From Desulfobulbus oligotrophicus (lineage in GTDB: Bacteria; Desulfobacterota; Desulfobulbia; Desulfobulbales; Desulfobulbaceae): 64,000 bases of DNA. Positions within the stretch are counted from its first letter, which is position 1. Each line of letters starts with the position of its first letter. Positions 2,305 to 57,288 of this stretch are shown here, one piece after another. Below the pieces are notes generated by a model. That model saw only the letters and a list, made by a program, of their open reading frames with translations, made no database searches and had not been told where the DNA came from. The stretch spans positions 1,159,501 through 1,223,500 of the forward strand of contig NZ_CP054140.1 in NCBI RefSeq assembly GCF_016446285.1. The letters run 5' to 3'. The position numbers and the translations under genes are program-made.

Positions 2305-2442
2305 TCAAAACGACAGAGTCTGTTCACCTAATATTACATTATTTTCGTCAATTAACGTCAAGAATTTTATCGTCATTTGTCCAGAAAGGGTAATACATCC
2401 ATGCGCTGCCATGAAAGCGGTCTCCGGCTTATCTATAAACAT
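2305..2442 (-). CDS. Possible small protein upstream of the NagB-like gene
   Basis: A 45-codon frame ends 25 bases upstream of the NagB-like start and reads as a plausible hydrophilic peptide (MFIDKPETAFMAAHGC...). Its ATG has an AAAGGGGG site about 4 bases upstream. The frame stays open to an ATG at 2553, which has no such site. No family is recognised. It could be a leader peptide, a small regulatory protein, or chance. Confidence 0.35.
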   Translation of the reverse strand: MFIDKPETAFMAAHGCITLSGQMTIKFLTLIDENNVILGEQTLSF

Positions 2443-2956
2443 TATTCCCCCTTTGTCAGTGCTGCAGCCTGCCCGGGCAATCAAAGTCGAGTATGCTCTC
2501 AGAAGAGCATCTTTTCCGTCTTTATGGCAGAAGATATTTTTACGCTGTCGCACTATACAGACATCGAGTAAAGGCTGGGTCCATCAACCTTGGCAACAGT
2601 TGTTCCCATACAGAGAGACCGTCTGTCTCTTCACCACATTTTTCTTAACAATGTGCTGATTTCAGAGTTCTTTCTTTGATTATGTTGTTTTTTGTCGAGG
2701 GGTTATTAAAGTGGATTTTTTTGCGTCTCACTGAATCGATGAATTCCTGGTGTGTTGAAGGTTTTTAATCATATTGATGGTCGTGGTGTTCAGGTCAATG
2801 GAAGTGACGGGTACTGCTTTTTCGTCAAAAATAGACATGGTGCAGTTGTGAAAGGTCCGTCATCTTATTATAAAGAAGGCCGTGATAATTCCCTGGAAAA
2901 GGAAGACCGGGATACCCGGCGCAGAACCCGTTAATTCGCAACAAGGAGGCGGATAC
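2443..2956. other. Divergent intergenic region upstream of gdhA
   Basis: About 510 bases lie between the possible small ORF and gdhA. A short hairpin AGAGAC-CGTCT-GTCTCT sits at 2614-2630, and a small CCGGG-ATA-CCCGG hairpin at 2907-2919 lies about 40 bases before the gdhA start. The region should carry promoters for both directions, but I could not fix one with confidence. No convincing gene is present; the plus-strand frames here have no good ribosome binding site. Confidence 0.45.
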
Positions 2957-4318
2957 ATGTCAATTATTACAGATGTTATCGACAAGGTTAAACGAGTGGA
3001 TCCAGGTGAACCGGAATTTCATCAGGCTGTGACCGAGGTTTTGGAAACCCTGGAACCAACTGCTGAACGGCATCCGGAGTTTGTTAAAGCCAATATCTAT
3101 GAAAGAATTGTCGAACCGGAACGCACGATTATGTTCCGTGTCCCCTGGATGGATGATAAGGGGCAGATCTTTGTCAACCGTGGCTTTCGCGTCCAGTTTA
3201 ATAACGCTATCGGGCCGTTTAAAGGGGGCATTCGATTTCATCCGTCGGTCAATCTTTCCATCATCAAGTTTCTTGGTTTTGAGCAGATTTTTAAAAATGC
3301 TCTGACAACACTCCCCATGGGGGGTGGAAAAGGTGGTTCGGACTTTGATCCCAAGGGAAGATCGGACAGTGAGATCATGCGTTTTTGCCAGTCATTTATG
3401 GCAGAGATGTTTCGGCATATAGGACCGGAGACGGATGTGCCGGCCGGAGATATCGGTGTCGGCAGCCGTGAGGTCGGTTATATGTTTGGTTATTACAAGA
3501 AGATTCGCAATGACCACACCGGGGTTTTTACAGGCAAGGGGTTGGAGTACGGCGGCAGTTTGATACGACCGGAATCCACCGGCTACGGTGCTGTTTACTT
3601 TGCTGCTGAAATGCTGGCCACCCGCGGGCTTGATCTCAAAGGCAAGGTGTTTGCCGTGAGCGGTGCCGGTAACGTTGCCCAGTATGCCATTGAAAAGATC
3701 AATCAAATGGGGGGCCGGGTTATCTCAATTTGTGACTCGAGCGCAACGGTTATTGATGAGCAGGGCATAGATGCTGACAGGTTACTGTATCTGCAGGAGT
3801 TGAAGAACGTTCGCCGTGGTCGGGTAAGTGAGTACGCGAGCACATACAGTAACAATGTTACCTGTATAGAGGGCAAAAACGTCTGGGATGTGATTCGGGA
3901 TCAGGGCATTAAGGTGGATGTTGCTATGCCGTGTGCAACCCAGAACGAAATTAACGGCGAGCATGCCCGGGCCCTGGTGCAGAACGGTTGCTTCTGTGTC
4001 ACCGAAGGCGCAAATATGCCGTCTACTCCTGATGCAGTCCGCATCTATCGGGAAAACAATCTGCTGTACGGCCCAAGCAAGGCGGCCAATGCCGGTGGTG
4101 TGTCCACCTCCGGCCTGGAGATGAGCCAAAACAGCTTGAAGCTTTCCTGGAGTCGTGAGGAGGTGGATAACCGTCTGCTGCTGATTATGAAAAGTATTCA
4201 TAGATCCTGTCTTGATGCTGCTGAAGCGTATGGTCGGACAGGTGACTATGTGATGGGAGCGAATATAGCCGGGTTCACCAAGGTGGCGAAGGCTATGCTG
4301 GCCTATGGTGTTGTTTAA
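2957..4318 (+). CDS. gdhA: NADP-specific glutamate dehydrogenase
   Basis: Catalyses reductive amination of 2-oxoglutarate to glutamate, a cytosolic route of ammonium assimilation. The 453-residue length is that of the hexameric NADP-type enzyme. Visible family landmarks are the substrate-domain block GPFKGGIRFHP, the active-site lysine segment LPMGGGKGGSDFDPKG, the PAGDIGVGSREVGYM block, and the Rossmann-fold start VSGAGNVAQYA. The reading frame runs upstream to 2882, but the ATG at 2957 has a textbook AAGGAGG at 2943-2949 and fits the family N-terminus, so it is the start. The gene is monocistronic, with a strong terminator about 50 bases downstream. Confidence 0.97.
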   Translation: MSIITDVIDKVKRVDPGEPEFHQAVTEVLETLEPTAERHPEFVKANIYERIVEPERTIMFRVPWMDDKGQIFVNRGFRVQFNNAIGPFKGGIRFHPSVNLSIIKFLGFEQIFKNALTTLPMGGGKGGSDFDPKGRSDSEIMRFCQSFMAEMFRHIGPETDVPAGDIGVGSREVGYMFGYYKKIRNDHTGVFTGKGLEYGGSLIRPESTGYGAVYFAAEMLATRGLDLKGKVFAVSGAGNVAQYAIEKINQMGGRVISICDSSATVIDEQGIDADRLLYLQELKNVRRGRVSEYASTYSNNVTCIEGKNVWDVIRDQGIKVDVAMPCATQNEINGEHARALVQNGCFCVTEGANMPSTPDAVRIYRENNLLYGPSKAANAGGVSTSGLEMSQNSLKLSWSREEVDNRLLLIMKSIHRSCLDAAEAYGRTGDYVMGANIAGFTKVAKAMLAYGVV

Positions 4319-6638: not shown

Positions 6639-8833
6639 GCCTGACGTATTACCTGTGGGGGACGAACTTTAGTGGCACTGGCCAATTGGACCACGATGCG
6701 GTCGGTTTTGTGCAGACGCCCGACCAGTGTACGAAAGAGATGCCTTGAGACGTCCGGGTATTTTTCAATGAGTTCCGAGAGTTTGTCTCCCGGATATCGT
6801 TTGATGGTGCAGCGGCCGACAGATATGATGGATGCTGAACGCGGTTCCTCTAAAATGGCGGCCATCTCCCCGAAGTACTCTCCGGGTTCAGTGATCTCCG
6901 CTATCTTCTTTCCGGACCGAAGGACAGCTACTTTACCGCGGATCAACTTGAAAAAATCTTTATCCTTGTTGCCTTCCTGGATAATAATATCACCATCCTC
7001 ATATTCTTCGACATCAGGATTGACAAGATAAGCAGGGAGGCTGTCCTCATGGGCAACCGTGCGTCTGAGTACCTCTTCAAAACTGGTGATTCCTTCACGG
7101 GCCTTCTGTAAGGCGGCCTCGCGCAGAGTAAACATACCTTCCTGGATAGCTACTTTCCGCAACTGCTCTTCAGACACTTCCGCTTGAATAGCCTCAGCCA
7201 CAGCCTCGGTAACTTCCATCAGCTCAAAGAAACCGACCCGACCCCGATACCCCATACCATTGCATTCCGGGCAACCTTTGGCTTTGTACAGTTTAAGCTC
7301 ATCGAGCTCACTCTCTTTAAAACCCGCATTAAGGAGTGTCCGCTGGTCGTACTCTGCCGGTGTTTTGCACTGCTGACACAGGCGCCTGCCCAAACGCTGG
7401 GAGAGGACCATTGTCAGCGAGGAGGCGAGGATATAAGAAGGGATGCCGATGTCCACCATACGACTGACAGTGGCCGGAGAATCGTTCGTATGCAGTGTGG
7501 AGAAGACCAGGTGCCCGGTCATGGCGGCCTTCATCGCAATTTCAGCGGTCTCTATATCCCGGATCTCGCCGACCATGATAATGTCCGGGTCCTGGCGAAG
7601 AAAAGCCTTAAGCGCTGCGGCAAAGGTCATACCGACTTCAGGGTTGACGTTGACCTGGTTAATACCCTTGAAGTTGAATTCAACCGGATCTTCAGCCGTC
7701 AGGATCTTGATATCTTCGGTGTTCAGCGAGTTGAGTGCGGAATATAAGGTCACAGTTTTTCCGGATCCGGTGGGGCCGGTGACCAGCAACAGCCCCTGTG
7801 GCCGGTTGAGACAGCGTCTGAGAGCAGCAAAGGTGTCCTTGGTGAACCCGAGTTTGGTGAGGTCGACATTGAGTGAGTTTTTGTCAAGAATACGAAGGAC
7901 AATACCTTCACCGTGGAGCAGCGGAAGGGTGGAGACTCGGAAATCCACAGCCCGGTTTCGGCCCAGTCTGATTTTGATGCGGCCGTCCTGAGGAACACGA
8001 CGTTCGGTGATATTAAGCCCGGCCAGAATTTTCATGCGGGCTGCCATGGCATTTTTGATGGTCAACGGCAGGTTCATCGATTTAAACAATGAGCCATCTT
8101 TACGATAACGAACCTGCATTATCTTTTCAAATGGTTCGATGTGGATGTCACTTACCCCTTCCTGAACAGCTTTGACCAGAATGCCGTTGACCAGTTTTAT
8201 GATCGGAGCATCTGAGGCCGAGAACTGCTCGTACGCTCCTTCTTCCTGGCCGTCACTTTCGATTTCAAAATCATCGGCAGCATCGGCCACCAGGGCACCG
8301 AAATCGTCAATTTCAGTAACGGATTCTTCTTCGACTTCTCCTTCAAATTTGAAGAATGACTGATACTCTTCTTCGTTGATGCGGTAGTGTTTTTTATAGG
8401 CATCTATGATGTCCTTGGCAGTGGAAACACAGATGGAGAGATTTTTCTGGACGATATCCTGGAGCTGCTCCACTTCAACGGTATCTGTGGGCTCCACCAT
8501 GGTTACCTGCAGGGTGTCGCCGGAGATCCGTAAAGGAAAAGCCATGAACTGTTTGGCGGTTTCATACGGAATCAGCTGTAGAACTTCTTTGCTTGGTACC
8601 TCCTTTTCCAGCACAACCAACGTGTAGTTATGCATCCGGCTCAAGAAGTTGGCAATGGTATCCTGCTCAATGACGCCGCTTTCAAGCAGGATGCGGCTTA
8701 ACCGCTTTTTGGTTTTTTTCTGGGTAACCTTGGCTTCTTCAAACTGGGTTGAGGTGATGTAACCGGCCTTGCTCAGCAACTCACCGATTTTCAGTTTTCC
8801 CGCGCCGGACTGGTCTTTGACGGTCTTTTTCAT
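6635..8833 (-). CDS. PilB/GspE-family secretion ATPase with C-terminal cyclic-nucleotide-binding domain
   Basis: A 732-residue type II/IV pilus assembly ATPase. In order: an N-terminal MshEN/GspE-N domain (about 15-135), an acidic linker (about 165-200), and the T2SSE ATPase core (about 205-590) with SDIHIEP, Walker A GPTGSGKT (353-360), the Asp-box with EDPVEF, the Walker B region DPDIIMVGEIRD (415-426) and the His-box STLHTND. Paired cysteines CQQC and CPEC (486-489, 521-524) form the usual zinc site. Unusually, residues about 609-714 form a complete cNMP-binding domain with phosphate-binding cassette GEYFGEMAAILEEPRSASI. The frame opens at 8881, but the ATG at 8833 has a GAGAGGG site a few bases upstream, while 8881 has none. 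The system it powers is not encoded nearby; the type II locus in this window has its own gspE. Confidence 0.9.
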   Translation of the reverse strand: MKKTVKDQSGAGKLKIGELLSKAGYITSTQFEEAKVTQKKTKKRLSRILLESGVIEQDTIANFLSRMHNYTLVVLEKEVPSKEVLQLIPYETAKQFMAFPLRISGDTLQVTMVEPTDTVEVEQLQDIVQKNLSICVSTAKDIIDAYKKHYRINEEEYQSFFKFEGEVEEESVTEIDDFGALVADAADDFEIESDGQEEGAYEQFSASDAPIIKLVNGILVKAVQEGVSDIHIEPFEKIMQVRYRKDGSLFKSMNLPLTIKNAMAARMKILAGLNITERRVPQDGRIKIRLGRNRAVDFRVSTLPLLHGEGIVLRILDKNSLNVDLTKLGFTKDTFAALRRCLNRPQGLLLVTGPTGSGKTVTLYSALNSLNTEDIKILTAEDPVEFNFKGINQVNVNPEVGMTFAAALKAFLRQDPDIIMVGEIRDIETAEIAMKAAMTGHLVFSTLHTNDSPATVSRMVDIGIPSYILASSLTMVLSQRLGRRLCQQCKTPAEYDQRTLLNAGFKESELDELKLYKAKGCPECNGMGYRGRVGFFELMEVTEAVAEAIQAEVSEEQLRKVAIQEGMFTLREAALQKAREGITSFEEVLRRTVAHEDSLPAYLVNPDVEEYEDGDIIIQEGNKDKDFFKLIRGKVAVLRSGKKIAEITEPGEYFGEMAAILEEPRSASIISVGRCTIKRYPGDKLSELIEKYPDVSRHLFRTLVGRLHKTDRIVVQLASATKVRPPQVIRQA

Positions 8834-9081
8834 CGACCCTCTCTGGGTGCCGGTAGTTTGTTGTTCTGGTTTAGATGCCATTGTTGCCGTGGTGTTATTC
8901 TAAGGGTCGATAAAAGTTATTTTCAAGTATTGTACAATAAACACGGATGCTGGTCAAAAAAGAACGGTATGGTTTCCATGAAGCATCAGCCGACCGGAAT
9001 CGGTCTGCCCATGCCTTGATTGATCAACGCATACCTGGCCGGGAGTCCACACAACTCTCGGCAGATTATCAGGAGTAATGA

Positions 9082-10014
9082 TTAAAAAATCATTGGATAG
9101 CGACGTTCCAATTCCTTTGCCAGGGGCATCATTACCTCTCGCATTGATGGTTCGGCTGCGGCTGAGGTGCGCAGGGAGAGTATATGCTGCCATTCAAGAA
9201 GATTGGCATAGGCAATGATCTCAGTTTTGCAGGAATTGGGCAGAACTGTTCGGGCCGCCTGCGGGGAAGAAGTTGTTAACAGGTGGAAGTATTGCTTCTC
9301 CATTGCCTGCATAGCCTGCTCCCATACCGAGAACTCTTCACTACCCTCTTCAAAGAATACAGGTTTGATAAAGGTGATCTCGTTGCCGAATTTGTCAGCC
9401 GAATATCGACAGTACCGTTGACTCTCCTGCAGGAAACTGCAGGGGCGGTGACGAACGAGTTCATGGGTGACTGCCCGGTTAACAACGAACTTAACCGCCA
9501 GATACCGGTGTTTTGCACACACAGGTGCGCTGAGCTGCTCCACCTGCTGTACGTCCATTTTGTCAACAAGGATACGGGAAGGGGTGGAATCCGGTGCCTG
9601 AAGGGGGAGCCCTTCAAAAAAATATGGGTGTTTCCGGGCAAGGAAACCGGCAATTGCCTGTGCAATGGCGTCTCCAGTGTGCAACTGAAGCATCTCACGG
9701 AAGGCGCGGATAGATCCGGTAATGAGTAATGTGGAGTTACTCAGCCGGTCTGCCTGCAGGAATTTGGGTTGGAGAAAAAAGAAATCTTTGATGGGGGCAT
9801 CGGTCGGGCAGGTGACGATGACCGTGACAACACCCATTTCCAGGACGGAGTTGTGCCCGTTTTCCACCATTTTTCTCACAAAGGGAATGGCAGAGTCGCT
9901 GCTTATCCGATCTTCACTTTTGTAGCAGATCCGACCACAGTACTCTATACGAACCGGCAATGACTGTCGGTCAAGCTCATCAAGGATTGTGAAGCTTGGC
10001 TTTATTGTACGCAT
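9082..10014 (-). CDS. thyX: FAD-dependent thymidylate synthase
   Basis: ThyX makes dTMP from dUMP using methylenetetrahydrofolate and reduced FAD. The diagnostic RHRx7S motif is present: RHR at 188-190 and Ser198 in RHRPCSFLQESQRY. GHNSVLEMG near residue 53 is the expected early flavin/dUMP block and LRTSAAAEPSMREVM the C-terminal one. At 310 residues it is longer than typical ThyX (220-260); the extra length lies between about 110 and 165. It sits 72 bases downstream of nifS on the same strand and is probably co-transcribed. No strong ribosome binding site is visible before the ATG. Confidence 0.93.
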   Translation of the reverse strand: MRTIKPSFTILDELDRQSLPVRIEYCGRICYKSEDRISSDSAIPFVRKMVENGHNSVLEMGVVTVIVTCPTDAPIKDFFFLQPKFLQADRLSNSTLLITGSIRAFREMLQLHTGDAIAQAIAGFLARKHPYFFEGLPLQAPDSTPSRILVDKMDVQQVEQLSAPVCAKHRYLAVKFVVNRAVTHELVRHRPCSFLQESQRYCRYSADKFGNEITFIKPVFFEEGSEEFSVWEQAMQAMEKQYFHLLTTSSPQAARTVLPNSCKTEIIAYANLLEWQHILSLRTSAAAEPSMREVMMPLAKELERRYPMIF

Positions 10015-42562: not shown

Positions 42563-42615
42563 AGAGAGTGGCGAGAGAAAAGCCATGGAGACAAACGAAT
42601 TTTGGAGGTGAGTTT

Positions 42616-42978
42616 ATGACACCAACTGTTGGCGTGCAAACATTCAAACCCCGGCAACAGATTTTTACTCAAGAGCGCACTCAGGTGTCATCACAGTTTT
42701 GTTGCATCCTGTCGATTGTACAGACCAGAGTTTTTGCAGTTGTCGCCCTTGTCGTTCTGGTGCTCGGTATTGGTCTGACACAGATTATACAGACTGCAAT
42801 GAGTGATCTGCAGGAAAGAGCGAGCCATCTGCGATCTGGAAATATAGCTGTTGCAAATGAAAATGTTCGTCTGTTGGCTACCCGGGCCCAGTTGTCTTCA
42901 AAGGCACAGGTGATAGCTCTCGCCGGAACCAGATTGCACCTGTTTGAACCTGATCAAAAGCAGGTGCGTCGGATGTAG
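42616..42978 (+). CDS. ftsL: FtsL-like division protein
   Basis: A 120-residue bitopic protein with one transmembrane helix (about 37-58) followed by a heptad-like periplasmic stretch (SDLQERASHLRSGNIAVANENVRLL), as in FtsL. Sequence alone is weak; position between rsmH and ftsI-like carries the call. The start is the ATG at 42616, with GGAGGTGA at 42604-42611. The frame opens upstream at 42568. FtsL normally forms FtsQLB and activates FtsWI. Confidence 0.8.
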   Translation: MTPTVGVQTFKPRQQIFTQERTQVSSQFCCILSIVQTRVFAVVALVVLVLGIGLTQIIQTAMSDLQERASHLRSGNIAVANENVRLLATRAQLSSKAQVIALAGTRLHLFEPDQKQVRRM

Positions 42979-42984
42979 TTGAAA

Positions 42985-44811
42985 ATGGCAAGATCCATCA
43001 GAGCCAGAAGAAAGAGTAGCCGGTGGTACGTATTTTTACCCATTTTTGTTATTTTGCTGACGGCAGCTGGTATTGTCCTGTATAGCATTCCTCCCTCCCT
43101 CCAGGATATAGGCAGGGCGGTACAGTCTGCAGTCAGCAAAATTTCAATTCGCTCAGCGGGCCAGTCGCCCGCTGAACCTGTTTTAAGAGGCACAATATAC
43201 GATCGGAATTGGCGTGAGCTGGCAGTGTCGTATCAACTGTTTTCGGTTGTGATTAATCCGGCTGAGTTACATGACAGGAAGGAGACGGTAGAAAAGTTAG
43301 CCGCTATTTTCGAAGAGAAACCGGAACGGTTGGCCGCTCGTTTGAAGAACGCTCAGGATTCATTCGTGATTAAAGCAGATGTGGATCAGTTTCAAGTTGA
43401 ACAGATCAATGGCCTGCACTTGCGCGGGGTAGTCTGCAAACCGGAAGAGGTGCGGTTTTATCCCGGGCATGCCACGGCTTCTCATGTCCTTGGTTTCATG
43501 GGTGATGGTGTGGGGCTTGCCGGTGTTGAGGGGAAATATGATGCCGTGCTGCGGGGCGGAGGGTTCGGGGACGTCAATATTCCTGATATTAACTTCCAGG
43601 GGCAACAGCGACTGGGTATTACGGGCAGTGATCTGCTGCTTACCCTGGATATCAATTTGCAGAAACAGCTGGAAAGCCGATTTCGCAATTATCTGGCAAC
43701 GACCAATGGGATTGAAAAAGGAATGGCGCTGCTGGTTGAGCCCAGCAGTGGGCGCATTCTTGCCCTGGTCAATCAACCCTCATTCAATCCAAATTATTTT
43801 TGGAAGGCCAGTGAAAGTAACCGGATTAACCGAATATACAACCATGTGCTCAGCAAAGAGCTGATTCGACCGGTTCTGGCACGAGCAGCAGCTATTGAGC
43901 GTGAAGGTATTGAGGGGCCGGGGCTACTGCCGGTAACCGTTGCCGCTCCTGACTATGGCTTTTCACCTGAAAAACTGGATGCATTTGAACACCAGATTCA
44001 GCTGTACGGCTCTGTCTTCGGTAACTGGGAGCCGGGGTCCGGTGCTGCACAGGAACCGGAGGCTGAACCGGTTGTGACTGGAGTTCAGGTCGGGGTTACC
44101 CTTGCCAGTCTGGTCAATGGTGGGTGGCGGATTACACCTTATGTTGTTGATTCTGTATATGATTATCAGACATCTAAACGTTATGGCCGTAACAGTGATG
44201 CCACCGAAAAAATTCATGTGCTTGATCCGGCCCTTGGTGTGAAGATACGCAGGGAGCTGTTTCAGGACTGGATTTCGGCGCAGGATAATCTCATGGCGTA
44301 CACTGCGGATTATACGCAGGTCCGCAAGAAGGACGGTCTGGCCCATTTTTCTATACAAGACCTGTTTGTAGGTTTTGCTCCGGCTAAACAGCCACGGTTT
44401 TTCCTGTTGATCGCCGTGGAGCAGGATTACCTGAATCCTCGAGATCTCAACAAGGGCAGCAGTCTGACGGCAATGGAGCAGATGGGGAGGGAATTACTAG
44501 GGCAATTTACAAAGACAACTGTTGCCCAAAGTGTTTCTGAAAAGCCGCCTGAGCGCAACAAGGAGAATATGCGGCAATTCTTTATCAGCAAACGTCTGAA
44601 TTTTAAAGAGTCCCCCGGCAAGATAACCGAGTCGACCCCCCGTATGCCGAAGGTCCGGGGAATGAGCCTTCGCAAGGGGCTGCAGCAGTTAGACAGGTAT
44701 AATATAAAGATGCGGATTAACGGCAGTGGACGAATCATCGCTCAATATCCACTTCCAGGCCAATCTTTGATCGGCATAGAAGAATGCATGCTGACCCTGG
44801 AACCCAGGTAA
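42985..44811 (+). CDS. FtsI/PBP3-like protein lacking the penicillin-binding catalytic motifs
   Basis: A 608-residue homologue of the septal class B penicillin-binding protein. Present are a transmembrane helix (about 16-33), the PBP dimer-type start (AEPVLRGTIYDRNWRELAVS), GVEGKYDAVLRG, ALLVEPSSGRILALVNQPSFNPN, the VGVTLASLVNGG block and DLFVGFAPAKQPRFFLLIAV. A PASTA-like domain ends it (about 552-608). At the SxxK position (after NRINRIYNHV) the sequence is LSKELIRP. The region that should hold SxN is about 60 residues shorter. The KTG position reads YTADYTQVRKKDG. The open frame is intact with normal surroundings, so this is not simple decay. The SPEK further on does not lie where the catalytic Ser-Lys belongs. 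It may be a non-catalytic scaffold or activator of the divisome. The start is the ATG at 42985, with TTG at 42979 as alternative. Confidence 0.85.
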   Translation: MARSIRARRKSSRWYVFLPIFVILLTAAGIVLYSIPPSLQDIGRAVQSAVSKISIRSAGQSPAEPVLRGTIYDRNWRELAVSYQLFSVVINPAELHDRKETVEKLAAIFEEKPERLAARLKNAQDSFVIKADVDQFQVEQINGLHLRGVVCKPEEVRFYPGHATASHVLGFMGDGVGLAGVEGKYDAVLRGGGFGDVNIPDINFQGQQRLGITGSDLLLTLDINLQKQLESRFRNYLATTNGIEKGMALLVEPSSGRILALVNQPSFNPNYFWKASESNRINRIYNHVLSKELIRPVLARAAAIEREGIEGPGLLPVTVAAPDYGFSPEKLDAFEHQIQLYGSVFGNWEPGSGAAQEPEAEPVVTGVQVGVTLASLVNGGWRITPYVVDSVYDYQTSKRYGRNSDATEKIHVLDPALGVKIRRELFQDWISAQDNLMAYTADYTQVRKKDGLAHFSIQDLFVGFAPAKQPRFFLLIAVEQDYLNPRDLNKGSSLTAMEQMGRELLGQFTKTTVAQSVSEKPPERNKENMRQFFISKRLNFKESPGKITESTPRMPKVRGMSLRKGLQQLDRYNIKMRINGSGRIIAQYPLPGQSLIGIEECMLTLEPR

Positions 44812-44823: not shown

Positions 44824-47800
44824 ATGATGACCCTGGCGTACATCGTTGAAAATCTGTCGATACTTGAGGCCGACCATTTGTCTGAAGCGGCCTTGGGTAC
44901 GAAGATTGTTTCAATCACCGCTGATTCCAGACAGGTGGTGCCGGGCAGCCTTTTCATAGCTGTTTGTGGCGGGAAAACCGATGGACGGTTGTTTGTCCCA
45001 GAGGCAATAGAGCGCGGTTGCGTTGCCGTGGTCATGGAGGGACGCCACTGGGCAGGAGAGTGCCGGGTGCCGCTTGTTTTTACCGAGGACAGTCACGCTG
45101 CGGTGAGCGAGATAGCTGCCTGCTGGCACGGTTATCCGGCTGAGCAGTTGTGCCTTGTTGGTATTACCGGGACAAATGGGAAAACAACGACGAGCTGGTT
45201 GATCGAAAGCATGCTGACGGCAGCGGGCTTCAGGCCCGGAGTGATCGGTACTGTCAACTATCGATACTGTGATCGCAAAGGCATTGTCCATGTCATTCAA
45301 GACGCACCACTGACAACCCCGGATCCTCTAGCGCTGCAGAGTTTATTTCGTCGTATGGTTGATGAGGGCGTGACCCATGTCATCATGGAGGTCTCCTCCC
45401 ACGCGTTGGCGCAGAAGCGATTGGGGCGGACATGTTTTGATGTGGCCCTTTTTACAAACTTGAGCCACGATCATCTCGACTATCATCGTTCGATGGAGAC
45501 ATATTTTGCTGCCAAACAGCGGTTGTTTCAGAAGCATCTCAAGGCAACCGGCAGTGCAGTGGTGGTCAAAGACGTGATTTCCGGCGACACGGATTGGAGC
45601 GAAGAGATGTGTCGTGCAGTGCCGGCCAATTCACTAATCCGTTGCGGCCTTTCAAAAAAAGACTGTCAGGTCAGTGCTGACAAGGTTGTACAGACTGTGG
45701 ATGGATTCCACTGTCAGCTTGATCTTAAGGGCGCACAGGTTGAGTTTTTTTCCAGACTGTCCGGTGGCTACAATGTGCTTAACGTGCTGGCTGCCGCCGG
45801 AGTGGGTTTGGGTTTGGGCATTCCTCCCGAGCAGATCTGTGATGGGTTGATGCGGGTCGAGCGTATTCCCGGACGTCTGGAACGGGTCTGTCTGCCGGGG
45901 GTATTGTCAGGAGCAGGGCCGACAATTTTTGTTGACTATGCCCATACACCCGATGCCCTGGACAATGTGCTGCGTACCTTGCAGCCACTGACCACCCGGC
46001 GCCTGATCTGTGTGTTTGGGTGCGGCGGTGACCGTGATCGGAGCAAGAGACCGCAGATGGGTTCTATTGCTGTTCAGTATGCCAATGTTACCATTATAAC
46101 CTCGGATAACCCCCGTTCAGAACAGCCGGAGGCTATTATCGACGAAATCGTGCCGGGAGCGGCTCAGGGCGGACGACCGCACTGCAGTGTCGCCGCGCTC
46201 TTTGATCCCGCCAACCCTGAGGATGGGTACACTGTTTTTGTTGATCGTCGTACGGCCATTGCCACGGCCTGCAGTTTGGCGCAATCTGGAGATACTGTGC
46301 TTATTGCCGGTAAGGGCCATGAGAACTACCAGATTCTCGGAACCGTCAAGCAGTACTTTGATGACCGTCAGGAGGCGATCAATGGGCTGCTGCGCTGGAA
46401 TCGGCATCATTTACTTGCGGCCACCGAAGGTGTGGTGATTGCTGACTCTAAAGCCGGAATTTTCGAAAATATTTCAATAGATTCCAGAACGCTGCGCACC
46501 GGCGATGTGTTTGTTGCTCTGAAGGGAGAGTCTTTTGATGGGCATCACTATATTGATGCAGCCGTACAGGCGGGCGCTGCTGCAGTGGTTGCCGAACAGG
46601 CGCCGGTTGAATGTACTTCCGGTGTCCTCTACATCCAGGTGCGGGACAGCCTGCAGGCATTGGGACAGTTGGCAGCGTACAGGCGACAGCTGCTGAAAGG
46701 TTCGCTGAAGGTGGCTGCCATCACGGGCAGCTCAGGTAAAACAACGGTGAAGGAGCTGGTGGCCGCAATTTTTAACGAGGCGTTACTGCCTGTACGTTGC
46801 GGAGTAGATCCTCTTTTGAAGACAAAGGGAAACTTCAATAATCTCGTTGGTCTTCCTCTCTCTCTCCTTCCCGCGGAAGCCGGGCATCGGCTGGCTGTTC
46901 TTGAGATGGGCATGAATGCCCCCGGAGAGATCGCACAACTTACCAAAATAGCAGATCCTGATATCGGCTGTATCAACAATGTGCACCCGGCCCATCTGCT
47001 GGGGTTGGGAGATCTGCACGGGGTGGCGGCTGCCAAAGGTGAACTCTTTACCGGTATGCGGACCGATGCCGTCCGGGTGGTAAACTGTGATGATCCCCTT
47101 GTCAGGAGTCTGGCTGACCGGGCAAAGGGAAAACAGATCGGTTTTGCCGCGAGTGCGGCTGGGCGTCGATACAACCCGCTGGTTCGATCGACTCGGCAGG
47201 TCAATCTGGGGGAGCAGGGAATGCGATTTACACTGCATATCGGCTCCTGGAAACGCCGAATCACCGTATCACTTCATGGAAGCCACAACGTCAGCAACTG
47301 TTTGGCGGCGGCAGCTGTCGGCCATGCTGCAGGCATCGGTTCTGAAACCATTGCGCATGCCCTGATAAACCATGCGCCGGCAGGGGATAAACGCCTGGCA
47401 ATCGCAGAGCTGCCCGGCGGATTAAAGGTGGTCAACGATGCCTACAATGCCAACCCGGCATCGATGGCGGCCGGCTTGCACACGGTGGCATCCTTTGGTG
47501 CTCAGTGTCGCCGTGTTGCTGCTTTGGGCGACATGCTTGAGCTGGGGCCTTCTTCAGAGCGTCTCCATGCCGATATTGGTTCACTTGTTGCGCAACTGGG
47601 GTATGATCGTCTGCTCCTTACCGGGTCTTTTGCAGGAGCAGTGGCAGATGCGGCACGTAAAGGAGGGATGAACACCGAAAACATTCAGATCTTCCCCTCT
47701 CCTCAGGCCATGGCTGATGCAGTGTGGCGGATGCTCGCAGAAGGAGCACTGGGAAAAGGTGACTGGCTGTTGATTAAAGGATCACGCGGCATGCGCATGG

Positions 47801-47847
47801 AGCAGCTCTTCGATGAACTGCTGCACCGAATAACAGCTCCGGCATAA
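44824..47847 (+). CDS. murEF: MurE-MurF fusion: DAP-adding and D-Ala-D-Ala-adding ligases
   Basis: A 1007-residue bifunctional cytosolic enzyme of peptidoglycan precursor synthesis. The MurE half (about 1-520) has ATP loop GTNGKTT (116-122) and the DNPR motif (428-431) that marks meso-diaminopimelate specificity. The MurF half (about 527-1007) has GSSGKTT (635-641), LEMGMNAPGEIAQL and NDAYNANPASM. Both lack signs of decay. The halves are joined by a short linker with no stop. MurE-MurF fusions are known in Bordetella and annotated in Desulfobulbales. The fusion keeps the normal gene order. Confidence 0.95.
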   Translation: MMTLAYIVENLSILEADHLSEAALGTKIVSITADSRQVVPGSLFIAVCGGKTDGRLFVPEAIERGCVAVVMEGRHWAGECRVPLVFTEDSHAAVSEIAACWHGYPAEQLCLVGITGTNGKTTTSWLIESMLTAAGFRPGVIGTVNYRYCDRKGIVHVIQDAPLTTPDPLALQSLFRRMVDEGVTHVIMEVSSHALAQKRLGRTCFDVALFTNLSHDHLDYHRSMETYFAAKQRLFQKHLKATGSAVVVKDVISGDTDWSEEMCRAVPANSLIRCGLSKKDCQVSADKVVQTVDGFHCQLDLKGAQVEFFSRLSGGYNVLNVLAAAGVGLGLGIPPEQICDGLMRVERIPGRLERVCLPGVLSGAGPTIFVDYAHTPDALDNVLRTLQPLTTRRLICVFGCGGDRDRSKRPQMGSIAVQYANVTIITSDNPRSEQPEAIIDEIVPGAAQGGRPHCSVAALFDPANPEDGYTVFVDRRTAIATACSLAQSGDTVLIAGKGHENYQILGTVKQYFDDRQEAINGLLRWNRHHLLAATEGVVIADSKAGIFENISIDSRTLRTGDVFVALKGESFDGHHYIDAAVQAGAAAVVAEQAPVECTSGVLYIQVRDSLQALGQLAAYRRQLLKGSLKVAAITGSSGKTTVKELVAAIFNEALLPVRCGVDPLLKTKGNFNNLVGLPLSLLPAEAGHRLAVLEMGMNAPGEIAQLTKIADPDIGCINNVHPAHLLGLGDLHGVAAAKGELFTGMRTDAVRVVNCDDPLVRSLADRAKGKQIGFAASAAGRRYNPLVRSTRQVNLGEQGMRFTLHIGSWKRRITVSLHGSHNVSNCLAAAAVGHAAGIGSETIAHALINHAPAGDKRLAIAELPGGLKVVNDAYNANPASMAAGLHTVASFGAQCRRVAALGDMLELGPSSERLHADIGSLVAQLGYDRLLLTGSFAGAVADAARKGGMNTENIQIFPSPQAMADAVWRMLAEGALGKGDWLLIKGSRGMRMEQLFDELLHRITAPA

Positions 47848-48945: not shown

Positions 48946-50331
48946 ATGGATATCCAACCAGGGACACAGGCATTGATCATCGGCTTGGGAGCAGCAGGGC
49001 TGTCAACGGTGCGCTATCTGACAGCCATGGGTGTCCGGGTGAAGGTTTCCGATCAACGCAAGATTGATCAGATTGAGCCCGCAACCATCGACCTGCTGCG
49101 GTCGGCAGGGATTGCCCTGGAAACCGGCGGGCACAGTCTTGATCAGCTCACCGGCATGGATGTGGTCATCCCCGGGCCGGGCGTTCCGCTTGATGTGCCC
49201 GTGCTGCAGGCTGCCCGCAAACAAGGTCTCCCCGTTCTTGGTGAACTGGCGCTGGCAGCCGGTCGGTTTTCCAGCCCGGTAATCGCGATTACCGGTTCCA
49301 ACGGGAAGACAACTGTCACCGGTCTGCTCGGTCATCTGTTGCAGGCTGCAGGCAAACATCCCTTTGTTGGTGGCAATATTGGTACACCGCTGCTCGACTA
49401 CTTTGCAGCCCCGGAAGCGTATGACGTGGTGGTTCTTGAACTGTCGAGCTTCCAGCTCGATCTGGCTGGTGCGTTCCGACCGGACACAGCCCTCTTGCTG
49501 AACATCTCACCTGATCATCTTGACCGGCACGGATCACTGGCAGCATACAGGAGTACCAAGATGCGGATCTTTGCCAACCAGATCCAGGGAGATACGGCGA
49601 TTCTCGGTGCTGACGATCCGGTGGTTGCACATGCCTGTATCTGTTCCGGGGTTAACCGGTACATGTTTGGCCGGGATCCGGTGTGCGCGGCGAGAATTGT
49701 TGATGACAATATCCTGCTGCGCCTTGAGCAGAACGGCAACTCTCGTCAAGAAGAGTACCGTCTCAGCCGGACAAACCTGTTTTCTTCGGTCAATCAGTTG
49801 AATGCCGCGGCAGCGCTTTTGGCGGCAGCTGTGCATGGCTGCCGGTACGAAGATCTTGCCCGGGGTTTGGCCACGTTCATACCGCCTCCACACCGGATGG
49901 CCGAGGTGGCTGTTATCGATGATGTCCGTTTTATTAACGATTCCAAGGCAACGAATATCGGGGCATTGGCAGCGGCTTTGAACAGTTGTCCGGCTCCGGT
50001 TGTCCTCATTGCCGGCGGGCGTGACAAGGCCAGTGATTTCACCCTGTTAAAGGAAACAGTGGCTCGCAGGGTGAAGCGTCTGATCCTGATCGGTGAAGCA
50101 GCAGATGCAATGGAGGCCGCTTTGGGATCAGCCGTTGGCACAGAACGGGCAAAAACCATGGAAGATGCTGTCCGCCGGGCAAAAGCCGTTGCCGGCAGTG
50201 GCGACATTGTCTTGCTTGCTCCTGGTTGTGCAAGTTTCGATATGTTTTCCGGGTATGCCGAAAGGGGGACGGTCTATGAACAACATGTGCTGCGACTTTC
50301 CCGGGAATGTGGAGTCAACGTATGCGGCTGA
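48946..50331 (+). CDS. murD: UDP-MurNAc-L-alanine:D-glutamate ligase MurD
   Basis: A 461-residue Mur ligase. ATP loop GSNGKTTVTGLLGHLL, the ELSSFQLD block, NISPDHLDRHGS and FINDSKATN are diagnostic for MurD. It starts four bases after mraY and overlaps murG by 10 bases, leaving no room for ftsW, which usually stands here. Confidence 0.96.
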   Translation: MDIQPGTQALIIGLGAAGLSTVRYLTAMGVRVKVSDQRKIDQIEPATIDLLRSAGIALETGGHSLDQLTGMDVVIPGPGVPLDVPVLQAARKQGLPVLGELALAAGRFSSPVIAITGSNGKTTVTGLLGHLLQAAGKHPFVGGNIGTPLLDYFAAPEAYDVVVLELSSFQLDLAGAFRPDTALLLNISPDHLDRHGSLAAYRSTKMRIFANQIQGDTAILGADDPVVAHACICSGVNRYMFGRDPVCAARIVDDNILLRLEQNGNSRQEEYRLSRTNLFSSVNQLNAAAALLAAAVHGCRYEDLARGLATFIPPPHRMAEVAVIDDVRFINDSKATNIGALAAALNSCPAPVVLIAGGRDKASDFTLLKETVARRVKRLILIGEAADAMEAALGSAVGTERAKTMEDAVRRAKAVAGSGDIVLLAPGCASFDMFSGYAERGTVYEQHVLRLSRECGVNVCG

Positions 50332-51413
50332 TTGTAGCAGGAGGAGGGACCGGTGGGCACCTTTTTCCCGGTATTGCGGTGGCCTCAGAAGTTTTGGCCC
50401 GAATTCCGGATTCGCGGATACTCTTCATCGGGACACCTCGTCTCCTCGATCAACAGGCACTTGTCGGCCTGGGATTTGAATTGGCAACGTTGCAGTGCGG
50501 TGGTGTCAAGGGGTTAAGTGGTGGGGCGCGGATTCGCAGCTTACTGATGATGCCGGGGGCGATTGTTGAAGCCCTGCGTATGATCCGCAGGTTCAAGCCG
50601 GATCTGGTCCTGGGAGTCGGCGGATATGTGACCGGGCCGGTGATGTTGGCGGCAAAGCTGGCAGGGGTGCCGATAGTGATTCATGAGCAGAATTCAGTGC
50701 CCGGCATGGCTAATCGGCTGGCCGGAAAGTTGGCGGACAGGGTTTTGATTTCTCTGCCATGCAAACCTCCGTTTGCAGCCAAAAAAACTGTTCATAGCGG
50801 CAATCCGTTGCGGAAAGAGATTCTTGAAGCTGCCGCACAGTCCCGGCAGACGGAAGAACCGCCGACAGTGCTGGTGCTGGGCGGTAGTCAGGGAGCACAT
50901 CGGATAAATATGCTGATGATGGAGGCCGTGGAATATTTGAGTGTGCAGGGGATACCTGTTCGGCTTATTCATCAGACCGGATCAGTCGATGAGGAGAGGG
51001 TTGCCAACTGGTATGCTCAGCTTGGCACCATGGCCGAAGTAACCGCCTTTATCCGTGACATGGCAGCTGTTTATACACGGGCTGATCTGGTGGTTTCCAG
51101 AGCCGGCGCCACCACACTGGCGGAGTTGGCGGTGATGGGCCTGCCGGCGCTTTTGATTCCATATCCCTACGCAGCGGATGATCATCAGGTAACCAATGGA
51201 GAATATTACGCAAAAGCAAACGGTTGCCGGGTGTTGCGTGAATCAGGGCTTACCGGTGAGATTCTTGCGGCCACCATCAGGGAGCACTTGCAGAACCGCG
51301 AGGAGTTACATACAATGGCGGCCAATATGAAGACCATGGCGATTCCGGATGCAACAGACCGGATCGTGGACGAATGTGTTCGACTCGTGGCGCAAAAGAG
51401 ACGAAAAGATTGA
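50322..51413 (+). CDS. murG: Lipid II-forming N-acetylglucosaminyltransferase MurG
   Basis: A 363-residue GT28 enzyme adding GlcNAc to lipid I. The N-terminal MRLIVAGGGTGGHLFPGIAVA, GVGGYVTGPVMLAA, the HEQNSVPGMANRLAG block, LGGSQGA and SRAGATTLAELAVMGLPALLIPYPYA are all present. The start is the ATG at 50322, inside the end of murD; the frame opens at 50307. Confidence 0.96.
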   Translation: MRLIVAGGGTGGHLFPGIAVASEVLARIPDSRILFIGTPRLLDQQALVGLGFELATLQCGGVKGLSGGARIRSLLMMPGAIVEALRMIRRFKPDLVLGVGGYVTGPVMLAAKLAGVPIVIHEQNSVPGMANRLAGKLADRVLISLPCKPPFAAKKTVHSGNPLRKEILEAAAQSRQTEEPPTVLVLGGSQGAHRINMLMMEAVEYLSVQGIPVRLIHQTGSVDEERVANWYAQLGTMAEVTAFIRDMAAVYTRADLVVSRAGATTLAELAVMGLPALLIPYPYAADDHQVTNGEYYAKANGCRVLRESGLTGEILAATIREHLQNREELHTMAANMKTMAIPDATDRIVDECVRLVAQKRRKD

Positions 51414-53813: not shown

Positions 53814-54755
53814 ATGCCGATTTATACTCCCCGTCAGTCATCGTCGCGTTCTCGGAAAGGGGGGCGAAAGTTTAAAATAGCCCGTGGGATACTCGCTGCT
53901 TTTGGGGGTAAGAAGGCTGCTACGCTTAAAACCGCACAGTCGCAGACCCTGGTCATCAGTGCGCAACGGGCCTGGAAGTGGAAGTTACTGTGGAAAAACC
54001 TGCTGTTCGTCTGTATTCTTGTCGGTGTCGTTGGCTGCGGTTTGTGGGTCGGAGTCCAGTTGCTGTTGCAGTCGACCGTTTTTCGTCTGACTGATATCAA
54101 GATAGCAGGGAATCGTCATGCAAGTCAGCGTCAGGTCTTGGATCTTGCCGGACTGCAGCAGGGAGGGAATCTTTTCCACTTTGATAGTAAGGCGGCTGTT
54201 GCACGTATTGAAACGCATCCATGGATTGAGCGGGCGGAGATTAAAATCAACTGGCCCTCTGCCGTGGAAATAACTGTCAGTGAACTGCAGCCCTTTGCAC
54301 TGATCAATGTTGAGCATGGGAAGGAGCGGCGTCTCCGCTATCTGAACCGTGCCGGCCGCATTTTTTCTGAAGCCGGCCAGGGGCAGGAGATAGATTTTCC
54401 CGTTATCACAGGTGCGCACCATGAAAAAGATCTGGCAGTCGATCACCTGGTTGCAGGCAGTATGGCAAAGGCGGCATGTCAACTGCTTGACCTGGCCTCC
54501 CGGGGGAACGCTATTGTCCCGATTCAGGCGATCTCTGAAGTGCACCTTGATGCAGAGCAGGGGATCATCCTCTACCTGGTGGACCGGCCGTTCCCGATCT
54601 ACTTCGGTACGGATCGATTACAGGTCAAATACAATCGTTTGGTCAAGGTGCTTGGGCAGTTGTATGCAAAAAAACAGATCGATGCTGTTAAAGAAATACG
54701 GATGGATTATTTAGATGATAAAGTCTTGGTTACCGGAATCCAAAGTGATGGATGA
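53814..54755 (+). CDS. ftsQ: Cell division protein FtsQ
   Basis: A 313-residue bitopic protein. A basic cytoplasmic tail (about 1-60) precedes a transmembrane helix (about 62-85), the POTRA domain (VFRLTDIKIAGNRHASQRQVLDLAG) and a beta domain with WIERAEIKINWPSAVEITVSE. It is expected to act with FtsL and FtsB. It overlaps the ftsA start by eight bases. Confidence 0.94.
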   Translation: MPIYTPRQSSSRSRKGGRKFKIARGILAAFGGKKAATLKTAQSQTLVISAQRAWKWKLLWKNLLFVCILVGVVGCGLWVGVQLLLQSTVFRLTDIKIAGNRHASQRQVLDLAGLQQGGNLFHFDSKAAVARIETHPWIERAEIKINWPSAVEITVSELQPFALINVEHGKERRLRYLNRAGRIFSEAGQGQEIDFPVITGAHHEKDLAVDHLVAGSMAKAACQLLDLASRGNAIVPIQAISEVHLDAEQGIILYLVDRPFPIYFGTDRLQVKYNRLVKVLGQLYAKKQIDAVKEIRMDYLDDKVLVTGIQSDG

Positions 54756-55983
54756 GGAAATGGAAGAGCCGGTTCTCCGCGAGCCCGGTGAACTTGTCGC
54801 TGGTCTGGACATAGGGACGACCAAGGTCTGTGCCATGATCGGCGAGATCTTTGATGATCAGATTGAGATTATCGGTGTGGGTACTGCGGCTGCTTCAGGC
54901 ATGAAGAAGGGCGTAGTGGTCAACATTGAGTCTACGGTCAAGTCAATTCGTCAGGCTGTGGGAGCTGCATCGGATATGGCTGGTTGCGATATCCAGTCGG
55001 TTTTTGTCGGCATAGCCGGCAACCATATCAAAGGTTTCAACTCACCCGGTATCATTGCCATTAACAATCAGGAAATTCGCGAAAAGGATATCGCAGCGGT
55101 CATTCAGGCTGCTCAAACGGTTAAGATATCGGATAATCAACAGATTATTCATGTCTTGCCCCAGGAGTACATGGTTGATGACCACACCGGCATCCAGAAT
55201 CCGCTCGGCATGACCGGTGTCCGACTGGTTACCAATGTTCATATCGTCACCGCCGACAACACAGCTCTGCATAATCTGGTGACCAGTTGTAACCGTGCTG
55301 AACTGAATGTGGCTGAAATAGTGCTCGAATCAGTGGCCTCGTCGTTGACGGTTCTGACGAAGGATGAGATGGAGCTGGGTGTGGTTTTGATTGACATCGG
55401 CGGGGGAACAACAGATGTCGCCATTTTTTGTAACGGTACGATTAAACACACCTGGGAGTTGGCCCTGGGTGGCAACAATCTGACCAGCGATCTGTCTGTA
55501 GGGTTGCGTACGCCGCTTCAGGAGGCGGAAGAGCTCAAGTACCTCTATGGTGGTGCCCTGTCCGCGATGATCAAGGAAAATCATATTATCGAGGTGCCAA
55601 CGGTCGGCGATCGCAAGCCGCGGAAGGTATCACAGCGGATTATGGTTGAAATCCTTGAGGCGCGAATGGAGGAGATTCTCCAGATGGTCAACAAGAACAT
55701 CTGTGGTTCAGGGTATCGTAACCGGATTAATGCCGGTATTGTTATCACCGGAGGCACCGCACTTTTGGCCAACGTTGTGGAGATGGCAGAGCAGATATTT
55801 GATCTGCCGGTCCGAATCGGATACCCGCAGGGAGTGAACGGTAGAGTTGAAGAGATCCAGTCGCCTCGTTGTACCACCGGGGTCGGCCTGGTATTGTATG
55901 GCAGTAAAACAAAGACCTATGTGCCGAAGGAGAGTGGGGACATGGTCAAAAGAGCAAAAAAGTGGATAAAAAAATTTTTTTAA
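54748..55983 (+). CDS. ftsA: Cell division actin-like protein FtsA
   Basis: A 411-residue actin-fold protein that tethers FtsZ to the membrane. VAGLDIGTTKVCAMIGE begins the ATPase core; DIGGGTTDVAIF and GIVITGGTALLANV are the phosphate and adenosine motifs. The C-terminal DMVKRAKKWIKKFF is the membrane-targeting amphipathic helix. The start is taken at the ATG overlapping ftsQ; the ATG at 54760 is also possible. Confidence 0.96.
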   Translation: MDEEMEEPVLREPGELVAGLDIGTTKVCAMIGEIFDDQIEIIGVGTAAASGMKKGVVVNIESTVKSIRQAVGAASDMAGCDIQSVFVGIAGNHIKGFNSPGIIAINNQEIREKDIAAVIQAAQTVKISDNQQIIHVLPQEYMVDDHTGIQNPLGMTGVRLVTNVHIVTADNTALHNLVTSCNRAELNVAEIVLESVASSLTVLTKDEMELGVVLIDIGGGTTDVAIFCNGTIKHTWELALGGNNLTSDLSVGLRTPLQEAEELKYLYGGALSAMIKENHIIEVPTVGDRKPRKVSQRIMVEILEARMEEILQMVNKNICGSGYRNRINAGIVITGGTALLANVVEMAEQIFDLPVRIGYPQGVNGRVEEIQSPRCTTGVGLVLYGSKTKTYVPKESGDMVKRAKKWIKKFF

Positions 55984-56067: not shown

Positions 56068-57288
56068 ATGCCTTTCAGGATGGCCGAAGAAGAAACAGTT
56101 GCCGTGATCAAGGTGATCGGAGTCGGCGGAGGTGGCGGCAACGCTATCAATACCATGGTCGAGCGTCGACTGGCAGGCGTACAGTTTATTGCCGCCAATA
56201 CCGATATGCAGGCTTTGGAGAAATCTCGAGCTGACATCCGCTTACAGTTGGGGCCTGGCATTACGAAGGGAATGGGCGCCGGTGCTGACCCGGAAATGGG
56301 CCATGAGGCGGCACAGGAGAGTCATGAGGATCTGCAGGCCGTTATCAAAGGTGCTGACATGGTTTTTGTTACCGCCGGATTGGGCGGCGGTACCGGTACC
56401 GGAGCAGCACCAACCATTGCCAAGTTAAGTAAAGAGGCGGGTGCCCTGACAGTGTCTGTTGTTACCAAGCCGTTTTATTTTGAGGCAAAAAAACGGATGC
56501 GTAATGCCGAAGCGGGTTGGGAGAAGCTGAAAGAGTTTTCAGATACCATCATCACTGTACCCAATGACCGTCTGCTGAGCCTGATGAACAAGAACTCCAC
56601 CCTGGTGGACATGATGCAGATGGTTGACAATGTACTGTTTCAGGCAGTCAAGGGTATTACGGATCTGATTAATTTACCCGGGCACATCAATGTTGACTTT
56701 GCTGATCTCAAGGCCGTTATGAAAGAGGTCGGTCCTGCAATCATGGGTACCGGATCAGCAGTGGGTGACAACCGTGCCACCGAGGCGGCTAAACGGGCTA
56801 TTGACAACCAGCTGCTGGAGGAGGTGGGGATTGATGGTGCCCGTGGCATCCTCATCAATATTTCAGCAGCCAGAGAAACACTGACCATGAACGAGTTCAT
56901 GGAAGCCTCGGCTTTGATCCAGGAAAAAGCGCACGACGATGCCAACATCATCATTGGTGCTCTGTTTGATGAATCCCTGGGAGAAGAGTTGCGGGTTACG
57001 GTTATTGCCACCGGCATATCAAGTATAGAAGAACCGGAGGTTTCGCAGCTGGAGGTGGTACGGACGACGCGTCAGAACCTTGCCGGTTCCTCCCTGCCCG
57101 GGTCCAAGTCCAAGTTGTCCCGGCTGCTTGAAGAGGACATCAGTCTTCAGGAAAACACGACGGCAACCATTGCTAAGCCGAACCCCCTTCCCAAGGGGTT
57201 GCCGCGTATGCCCAAACCTATCTTTGATGAGCATGATCTTGGTAGTGAACTTGACGAACCGGCCTATCTTCGCAAAAAGGCCAACTGA
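56068..57288 (+). CDS. ftsZ: Tubulin-like cell division GTPase FtsZ
   Basis: A 406-residue FtsZ that forms the division ring. The GTP loop GGGTGTG (106-112), [12 protein letters not shown], the T7 loop NVDFADLK and a short linker are present. It ends in a normal conserved C-terminal peptide, [12 protein letters not shown], for binding FtsA and partners. GGGAGAG lies before the ATG. The 84-base gap after ftsA holds an inverted repeat, and a hairpin follows the gene. Confidence 0.97.

Follow-up and report, generated by a model that had tools for sequence, protein, structure and literature searches.

The stretch of DNA analysed here, hereafter the window, comprises 64,000 nucleotides from the closed genome (3,102,012 bases) of Desulfobulbus oligotrophicus (contig NZ_CP054140.1, positions 1,159,501 to 1,223,500), a genus that the NCBI taxonomy places in Desulfobulbaceae, Desulfobulbales, Thermodesulfobacteriota. 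It carries a division and cell wall (dcw) cluster with the gene order mraZ, rsmH, an FtsL-like open reading frame (ORF), a gene in the ftsI slot, a fused murE-murF, mraY, murD, murG, murC, murB, ftsQ, ftsA, and ftsZ, some of these names being assigned by eye. The gene in the ftsI slot, between the FtsL-like ORF and murE, occupies positions 42985..44811 of the forward strand. It starts with ATG and has 608 codons and a stop codon (coding part 42985-44808); an in-frame TTG lies at 42979. Based on the ORF, Pfam matches, alignments, an AlphaFold2 model, and a hidden Markov model (HMM), we call its product pseudo-FtsI, a catalytically degenerate class B penicillin-binding protein (PBP). The ORF directly upstream (42568..42978, forward strand) is only weakly assigned to ftsL: its Pfam FtsL match scores 17.2 bits against a cut-off of 22.9, and it has no NCBIfam match. 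Named close relatives of pseudo-FtsI come from Desulfobulbus species and metagenome-assembled genomes, for example D. elongatus DSM 2908 and D. alkaliphilus DSM 24258.

Pseudo-FtsI retains the architecture of a class B PBP, namely a membrane helix, a pedestal, a transpeptidase-like fold, and a PASTA domain, all encoded on the forward strand. The predicted N-terminal membrane helix spans residues 14-34 (43024..43086); the helix itself comes from the AlphaFold2 model and DSSP, and its membrane location from the hydrophobic letters. The pedestal, or PBP_dimer domain, spans residues 65-191 (43177..43557; Pfam, 1.2e-17). Pfam, alignment, model, and HMM together delimit a transpeptidase-like domain at residues 216-515 (43630..44529) that lacks SxxK, SxN, and KTG. 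The Pfam Transpeptidase profile matches in two stretches, 33 bits in all, the better of which places profile positions 163-282 at residues 365-482. By sequence comparison, an FNPN landmark (residues 267-270; 43783..43794) is kept upstream of the lost active site. The C-terminal PASTA domain (residues 551-608; 44635..44808) is among the best conserved parts of the protein in the order; the earlier note on this DNA had described a complete 608-codon frame with a PASTA-like end, and the Pfam PASTA match at residues 553-595 (24.2 bits, cut-off 23.2) agrees with that description. All NCBIfam matches of pseudo-FtsI fall far below their cut-offs. The AlphaFold2 model (pLDDT 88.2, pTM 0.78) has as its best structural match, among the matches listed, SpoVD (7rcz_B; Z 34.3, 3.5 A, 416 residues); PBP3-type structures follow at Z about 31-32, and the FtsI of the FtsWIQBL complex (8bh1_B) matches at Z 31.3 (5.0 A, 405 residues). 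Families other than those listed are not counted as excluded by this comparison.

The earlier note had read ELIR in place of SxxK, an SxN region about 60 residues short, and a missing KTG, and this reading was borne out both by profile alignment to solved class B PBPs and by the HMM. In the profile alignment, the pseudo-FtsI family tracks Pseudomonas aeruginosa PBP3 and Clostridioides difficile SpoVD from the pedestal onward. The conserved EPGSTVKP block of P. aeruginosa PBP3 aligns onto the window stretch SKELIRPVL, so that ELIR (residues 292-295; 43858..43869, forward strand) replaces the catalytic SxxK; the stretch of approximately 60 residues with SxN is missing, and KTG has no counterpart. 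For the active-site HMM we used 15 FtsI proteins encoded in dcw clusters of the same phylum, each cluster with a SEDS (shape, elongation, division, and sporulation) gene, and no residue of the window protein aligned to its SxN and KTG columns. The HMM puts ELIR one residue off (S>L, K>P) relative to our manual reading of the profile alignment (S>E, K>R), and in either register there is no Ser..Lys. All 15 intact controls, which are the HMM's own members, show Ser..Lys, SSN, and KTGT, and as a positive check PBP2 of the same genome reads S..K, SCD, and KTGT at the HMM columns. As judged from these alignments, the catalytic motifs SxxK, SxN, and KTG are lost from the protein in the ftsI slot.

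The same loss is found throughout the order. We aligned 127 ftsI-slot proteins from Desulfobulbales, one per genome and from 11 of its 15 families, to the HMM, with all three sites covered in 125 of them. None has the catalytic Ser..Lys, and none has SxN/D or K[ST]G at the active-site columns, compared with 15/15 relatives that have ftsW; the nucleophile column is mostly a gap, L, E, or G, and is never Ser. Four further families (f2, f8, f10, and f11; here f-, G-, and L-numbers denote families, genomes, and fetched loci of the comparison set) also lack the motifs, with f2 and f11 represented by short or partial frames only, and with these all 15 families of the order were sampled. On these alignments the loss is order-wide, which answers the question of conservation in Desulfobulbales that the earlier note had raised. 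Ser..Lys, SxN, and KTG are all missing from the 23 degenerate proteins taken from outside the order, one of which has the Ser without the Lys; ten of these 23 alignments span all three sites, the others being too short. Regular expressions return motif-like strings in a few loci (KTGT in L034 and L118, KSGS in L137, KSGT in L150, and PGTSLK- and GTVLK-like strings in L124 and L137), all of which fall off the active-site columns. A sequencing or frame error in the window is ruled out, since family members at 35-82% identity share both the open frame and the loss.

We estimated dN/dS by the method of Nei and Gojobori, which is subject to saturation. Relative to the nearest relative (82% identity), dN/dS is 0.097 for the whole gene and 0.028 for residues 270-345, the former active-site region; comparisons with six more distant relatives give 0.08-0.15 for the whole gene, with synonymous sites saturated in parts. 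Purifying selection on pseudo-FtsI is, by these estimates, strong, and they rule out a pseudogene. In an alignment of 91 of the 122 available proteins of the order, the pedestal holds many family-invariant residues (R68, D73, R157, Y159, P160, G177, L178, G180, and E182), as does the PASTA domain (M554, P555, R563, G580, G582, and P589), and the transpeptidase-like part has only G256, P265, and N270. The earlier note's view of a pseudo-transpeptidase maintained by selection thus gains from the order-wide loss, a dN/dS of about 0.1, and a confidently predicted class B PBP fold. Since no part evolves more slowly within the genus than the lost-site region (omega 0.03 versus the nearest relative), one might suppose that pseudo-FtsI has acquired a new active site with another nucleophile and is still an acyltransferase. 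We regard this as barely credible: invariance is concentrated in the pedestal and PASTA domain, neither a nucleophile nor a general base is among the three invariant residues of the transpeptidase-like part, and the nucleophile column has the composition given above. As a separate observation, the first 64 codons (window 42985-43176) show a proportion of synonymous differences (pS) to seven relatives of 0.27-0.45, against 0.48-0.88 in other regions, which possibly reflects a regulatory or overlapping constraint.

The partner polymerase of FtsI is missing as well. In the window, murD (48946..50331, forward strand) overlaps murG (50307..51413, forward strand) by 25 bases, so the usual ftsW slot is closed and leaves no room for ftsW. 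A search of the closed genome with PF01098 returned one SEDS protein, encoded outside the dcw cluster; it scores 402 bits against the NCBIfam RodA model (cut-off 336.7) and 290 bits against the FtsW model, below the cut-off of 337.5, and FtsW was not found with either resource. The gene for this protein ends a mreB-mreC-mreD-PBP2-RodA run (names partly by eye), and the other class B PBP of the genome is PBP2 by NCBIfam. The earlier note had placed the real septal transpeptidase elsewhere, and this expectation did not hold for class B PBPs: PBP2 has intact motifs (STYK, SCD, and KTGT), searches of the closed genome with PF00905 and PF03717 revealed no second class B PBP of the division type, and PBP_dimer proteins never exceed two in any of the 73 family genomes searched. 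Class B PBPs were counted with PF03717 because a genome-wide PF00905 search missed the window protein, although it has an hmmscan score of 33 bits over two stretches. With the same settings, PF01098 and PF03717 find two SEDS proteins and two class B PBPs in 13/13 comparison genomes. The remainder of the PBP set in the closed genome consists of two class A PBPs and a DD-carboxypeptidase-like match. The absence of FtsW, which the earlier note had overlooked, means that, as read from the gene inventory, the loss concerns the entire septal SEDS-class B PBP synthase and not just one active site.

Across 193 genomes of the order, exactly one SEDS match is present in 177, none in 8, and more than one in 8. 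Many of the comparison genomes are split into numerous contigs. The extra matches are RodA in two frames through a frameshift (G018), a partial tandem copy of PBP2-RodA (G024), a good or nearly full RodA together with short C-terminal pieces (G011, G071, G141, and G175, the short piece of G141 sitting inside a long contig), and two partial pieces each (G112 and G172). In one genome without a SEDS match (G029, 99% complete), PBP_dimer occurs only in the FtsI-slot protein, and we take its rod operon to be putatively missing from the assembly. The partial tandem duplication of PBP2 and RodA lies at G024:C371 (L228, L236), in the closest relative.

We then consider the phylum, using 246 genomes at 95% completeness or above, 13 from the order and 233 outside it. 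Outside the order, two SEDS matches were found in 183 genomes, one in 48, and three in 2; of these 48, the single genomes from f28, f34, f38, f40, and f41, every one from f52, and some of the remainder were counted without being read singly, and in f52 rsmH was not found and no cluster was read. The dcw clusters were fetched for 40 genomes of both kinds and, with the window, make 41. All 15 clusters with a SEDS gene have an intact FtsI; in the other 25 fetched clusters, as in the window, the ftsI-slot protein is degenerate and the stretch read contains no SEDS gene. One of these stretches (L184) ends in murD and does not cover the ftsW position, hence 24/24 fetched degenerate loci that reach past murD are without SEDS, and the state of FtsI agrees with the presence of a dcw SEDS gene in 40/40 judged clusters, which are related by descent and are not 40 independent events. 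The converse loss occurs in f27, f31, and f88, where FtsI is intact and is the sole PBP_dimer protein found, and the lone SEDS gene is in the dcw cluster or close to it. This pattern, with no PBP2 found, was noted at L169, L171, and L172 (G390, G226, and G230).

In a quick tree built from seven dcw marker proteins, one starred group of 17 degenerate rows unites the three rows from Desulfobulbales with f35, f36, f58, f64, f69, f70, f81, f85, and f93; f32 plus f57 and f26 are placed elsewhere. The degenerate label requires 3 changes on this tree, where shuffles give a mean of 12.4. When f26 is joined to the large group, with f32/f57 left out of the joining, the likelihood is higher (approximately unbiased test, p-AU 0.663), and a single clade of all degenerate rows is not clearly rejected (p-AU 0.109); the trees are quick searches, and the p-AU tests dropped 8 of the 41 rows. 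As neither joining is clearly rejected, the number of independent losses is one to three, and a single origin is neither shown nor rejected.

Outside the order, the slot protein is shortened by degrees (lengths from stop to stop). In f26 it has 643 amino acids, and RNRAVTDIYE before the lost PGSTxK is still readable; in the other sister lineages it ranges from 248 to 569 amino acids, with 526-569 in f58, f64, f70, f81, f85, and f93, 412-457 in f36 and f69, 334-389 in f35, and 248-344 in f32 and f57. The 334-amino-acid slot ORF of L191 (f35) is unmatched by the family HMM and was called degenerate from its place and its letters. In the shortest type (L187:12076-12819, L188:11850-12644, L192-L196, and L200), the recognisable remainder is a membrane helix and a PASTA-like C-terminus; the PASTA match in L187 is 16 bits, below the cut-off, and L193 has no PASTA match. 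Such a graded series shows which parts are dispensable. Ever shorter versions in sister lineages are also what would be expected if pseudo-FtsI were a relict on its way out, held in place by operon inertia, as is a gene split in two in two single-contig genomes. We nevertheless consider a relict very improbable, given a dN/dS of about 0.1 that is lowest over the former active-site region, complete open frames across the order, invariant pedestal and PASTA residues, and a confident fold.

Two observations could suggest that a diverged FtsW and septal transpeptidase exist and escape the profiles used. One is a protein of about 268 amino acids with many predicted helices, encoded between murD and murG, in the ftsW slot, in f32 and f57 (L187, L188, L193, L195, L196, and L200). 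The other is a second, distant SEDS/class B PBP-like pair outside the cluster in one f57 genome (G405) with a truncated ftsI-slot protein; at G405:C91 (L237), the distant SEDS-like gene, 27% identical to RodA, adjoins a distant class B PBP-like ORF. The slot protein has no Pfam match in the one member scanned, and its reading as a degenerate FtsW is not supported, with an hhalign probability of 0.1 to RodA and a model (pLDDT 59) too poor for fold comparison. This lack of detectable likeness, the overlap of murD and murG in the window, and the ability of PF01098 and PF03717 to recover both pairs in all comparison genomes make an escaped FtsW highly unlikely.

Taken together, the sequences give a consistent picture in which no FtsW is found, the only SEDS protein of the closed genome is RodA, the catalytic motifs of FtsI are lost, and its fold, helix, pedestal, and PASTA domain are retained under selection. 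We think it somewhat more probable than the contrary that the dedicated FtsW-FtsI septal synthase has been dismantled in the Desulfobulbales lineage, that FtsI survives as a non-catalytic part of the divisome, and that a class A PBP is the likeliest maker of the septum. Pseudo-FtsI would sit on FtsL/FtsB/FtsQ via its pedestal, its PASTA domain would read septal peptidoglycan or lipid II, and it would recruit or switch on the septum-making enzyme. That enzyme would be a class A PBP, both polymerase and transpeptidase, as is PBP1 of C. difficile, with RodA-PBP2 kept for elongation. In the structure of the P. aeruginosa FtsWIQBL complex, FtsL touches the pedestal and the transpeptidase domain of FtsI (PMC7614612), and the pedestal is the part that the order conserves. 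The scaffold or activator role proposed in the earlier note is therefore plausible, as a role that we infer.

The closed genome offers three candidates for septal synthesis: RodA-PBP2, a class A PBP of 617 amino acids, and a class A PBP of 1115 amino acids. All three candidate transpeptidases have intact motifs, which in the class A PBPs are SAFK 381, SSN 439, and KTGT 561 (617 amino acids) and STFK 519, SEN 576, and KTGT 961 (1115 amino acids); the distance from SxN to KTG is 385 residues in the larger enzyme versus 122 in the smaller one. The larger enzyme is encoded at L274:3902-7249 (forward strand), with neighbours at 7566-9272 (forward) and 1640-3418 (reverse), and was found in 7/8 genomes of the order tested and in 0/40 others. 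At least one class A PBP-like match is present in 32/32 tested genomes from degenerate-FtsI lineages. This inventory covers SEDS and PBP profiles. The larger class A PBP is flanked by a TPR protein, whose N-terminus looks lipoprotein-like by eye, and by an SLT-LysM protein; the TPR protein is possibly an activator.

A possible, though doubtful, alternative is that RodA-PBP2 serves both elongation and septation, with pseudo-FtsI as the adaptor that brings this pair to the septum. RodA-PBP2 is the only SEDS-class B PBP pair found in the closed genome, and its PBP2 is intact; furthermore, six genomes of f36, f58, f69, and f85 have a single class A PBP-like match, and RodA-PBP2 may carry more of the load there. 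The pair nevertheless sits in an intact mreB-mreC-mreD-PBP2-RodA elongasome operon, and in C. difficile, the best studied case without FtsW/FtsI, RodA-PBP2 is assigned to elongation and the class A PBP1 to septation (PMC10693644, as excerpted). It is because of this analogy that we favour a class A PBP as the septal synthase, with pseudo-FtsI as its divisome-side partner. Stated for the order and several sister lineages, the reading that we put at slightly better than even is that FtsW was deleted and FtsI became a switch that acts on a class A PBP (or on RodA-PBP2), bound to FtsQLB, equipped with PASTA, and retained while being trimmed stepwise.

Several points weigh against assigning the septum to a class A PBP with pseudo-FtsI as its partner. 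The class A PBP step is itself drawn by analogy, and class A PBP matches are also present in 16/16 comparison genomes, so that their presence is weak evidence. The 1115-amino-acid enzyme was not found in one of the eight genomes of the order (G109), and as an obligate substitute it lacks support as a general rule, being undetected in that genome and in all 40 others tested. In f32 and f57, almost no PBP part is left, and if the role is shared, it must there reside in the membrane helix and the PASTA domain. The genome G405, with its second SEDS/class B PBP-like pair, is one exception to a single SEDS among genomes with a degenerate FtsI. Finally, the ftsI-slot gene is split into two ORFs in two single-contig genomes (G051:C1:2301939-2303815 and G208:C1:747811-749642), which may be sequencing error or real decay.

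The systems closest to this one are known, and are compared here from excerpts of the papers cited. FtsI/PBP3, as in P. aeruginosa (8bh1, PMC7614612), is alike in its dcw place after an ftsL-like gene and in its membrane helix, pedestal, and transpeptidase fold (Z about 31); pseudo-FtsI differs in lacking SxxK, SxN, and KTG, in having no FtsW partner that we could find, and in carrying a PASTA domain. Division in C. difficile runs on the class A PBP1 and without FtsW/FtsI; the class B PBP3 of this species, in a complex with PBP1, promotes division non-catalytically (PMC12539705, PMC10693644; see also PMC12713402). The likeness lies in the absence of FtsW/FtsI function and the availability of a class A PBP (PMC10693644), and in RodA-PBP2 elongation and a catalysis-free role for a class B PBP, which in our case we infer (PMC10693644, PMC12539705). 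By its sequence, the closed genome likewise has no functional FtsW/FtsI pair and two class A PBPs with intact motifs. In C. difficile, however, SpoVD/SpoVE of the dcw cluster turned into sporulation enzymes, and the helper PBP3 has a catalytic activity, though a dispensable one; here degeneration has affected the dcw FtsI itself, throughout a whole order of other bacteria. Bacillus subtilis PBP2B serves divisome assembly structurally and independently of catalysis (PMC5656894), as would pseudo-FtsI; the native enzyme is active, however, and only an engineered mutant is dead, whereupon PBP3 becomes essential (PMC5656894). A study of cable bacteria and Desulfobulbaceae reported zipA, ftsW, and ftsN to be absent in two Electrothrix and two Desulfobulbus genomes, so that, by its excerpted text, the absence of FtsW is already in print for four Desulfobulbaceae genomes (PMC7873302). 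The same text takes FtsI as present and assigns septal synthesis to FtsI activity, on the E. coli model, and the excerpts make no mention of its active-site loss. In titles and abstract openings of the open-access literature, we found no report of FtsI inactivation or of co-loss in the phylum; pseudo-FtsI, its order-wide conservation, the co-loss, and the graded erosion are apparently new.

FtsW-FtsI is regarded as the engine at the core of bacterial cytokinesis, and a septal SEDS-class B PBP machine is thought to be near-universal; B. subtilis PBP2B, too, ends in PASTA domains. Here a large clade keeps FtsZ, FtsA, FtsQ, and an FtsL-like protein without either enzyme in working form, and the body of FtsI is still conserved. 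The structural and signalling role of FtsI may here be naturally separated from its chemistry, a separation that the phylum may have evolved on more than one occasion. The role of FtsI besides crosslinking becomes directly testable in these bacteria, the few enzymes able to build their septum can now be named, and PBP3-specific beta-lactams are predicted to be without a target. The results also bear on cable bacteria, which PMC7873302 assigns to the same family and in which it reports ftsW to be lacking.

Downstream in the window, the dcw reading places ftsQ at 53814..54755, ftsA at 54715..55983, and ftsZ at 56068..57288, all on the forward strand. Positions 44824-47847 hold murE and murF fused in a single ORF of 1007 amino acids. 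Long murE-F ORFs (982-1074 amino acids) also occur in L202, L183, L184, L218, L220, and L221, and separate murE and murF genes are found in other lineages.

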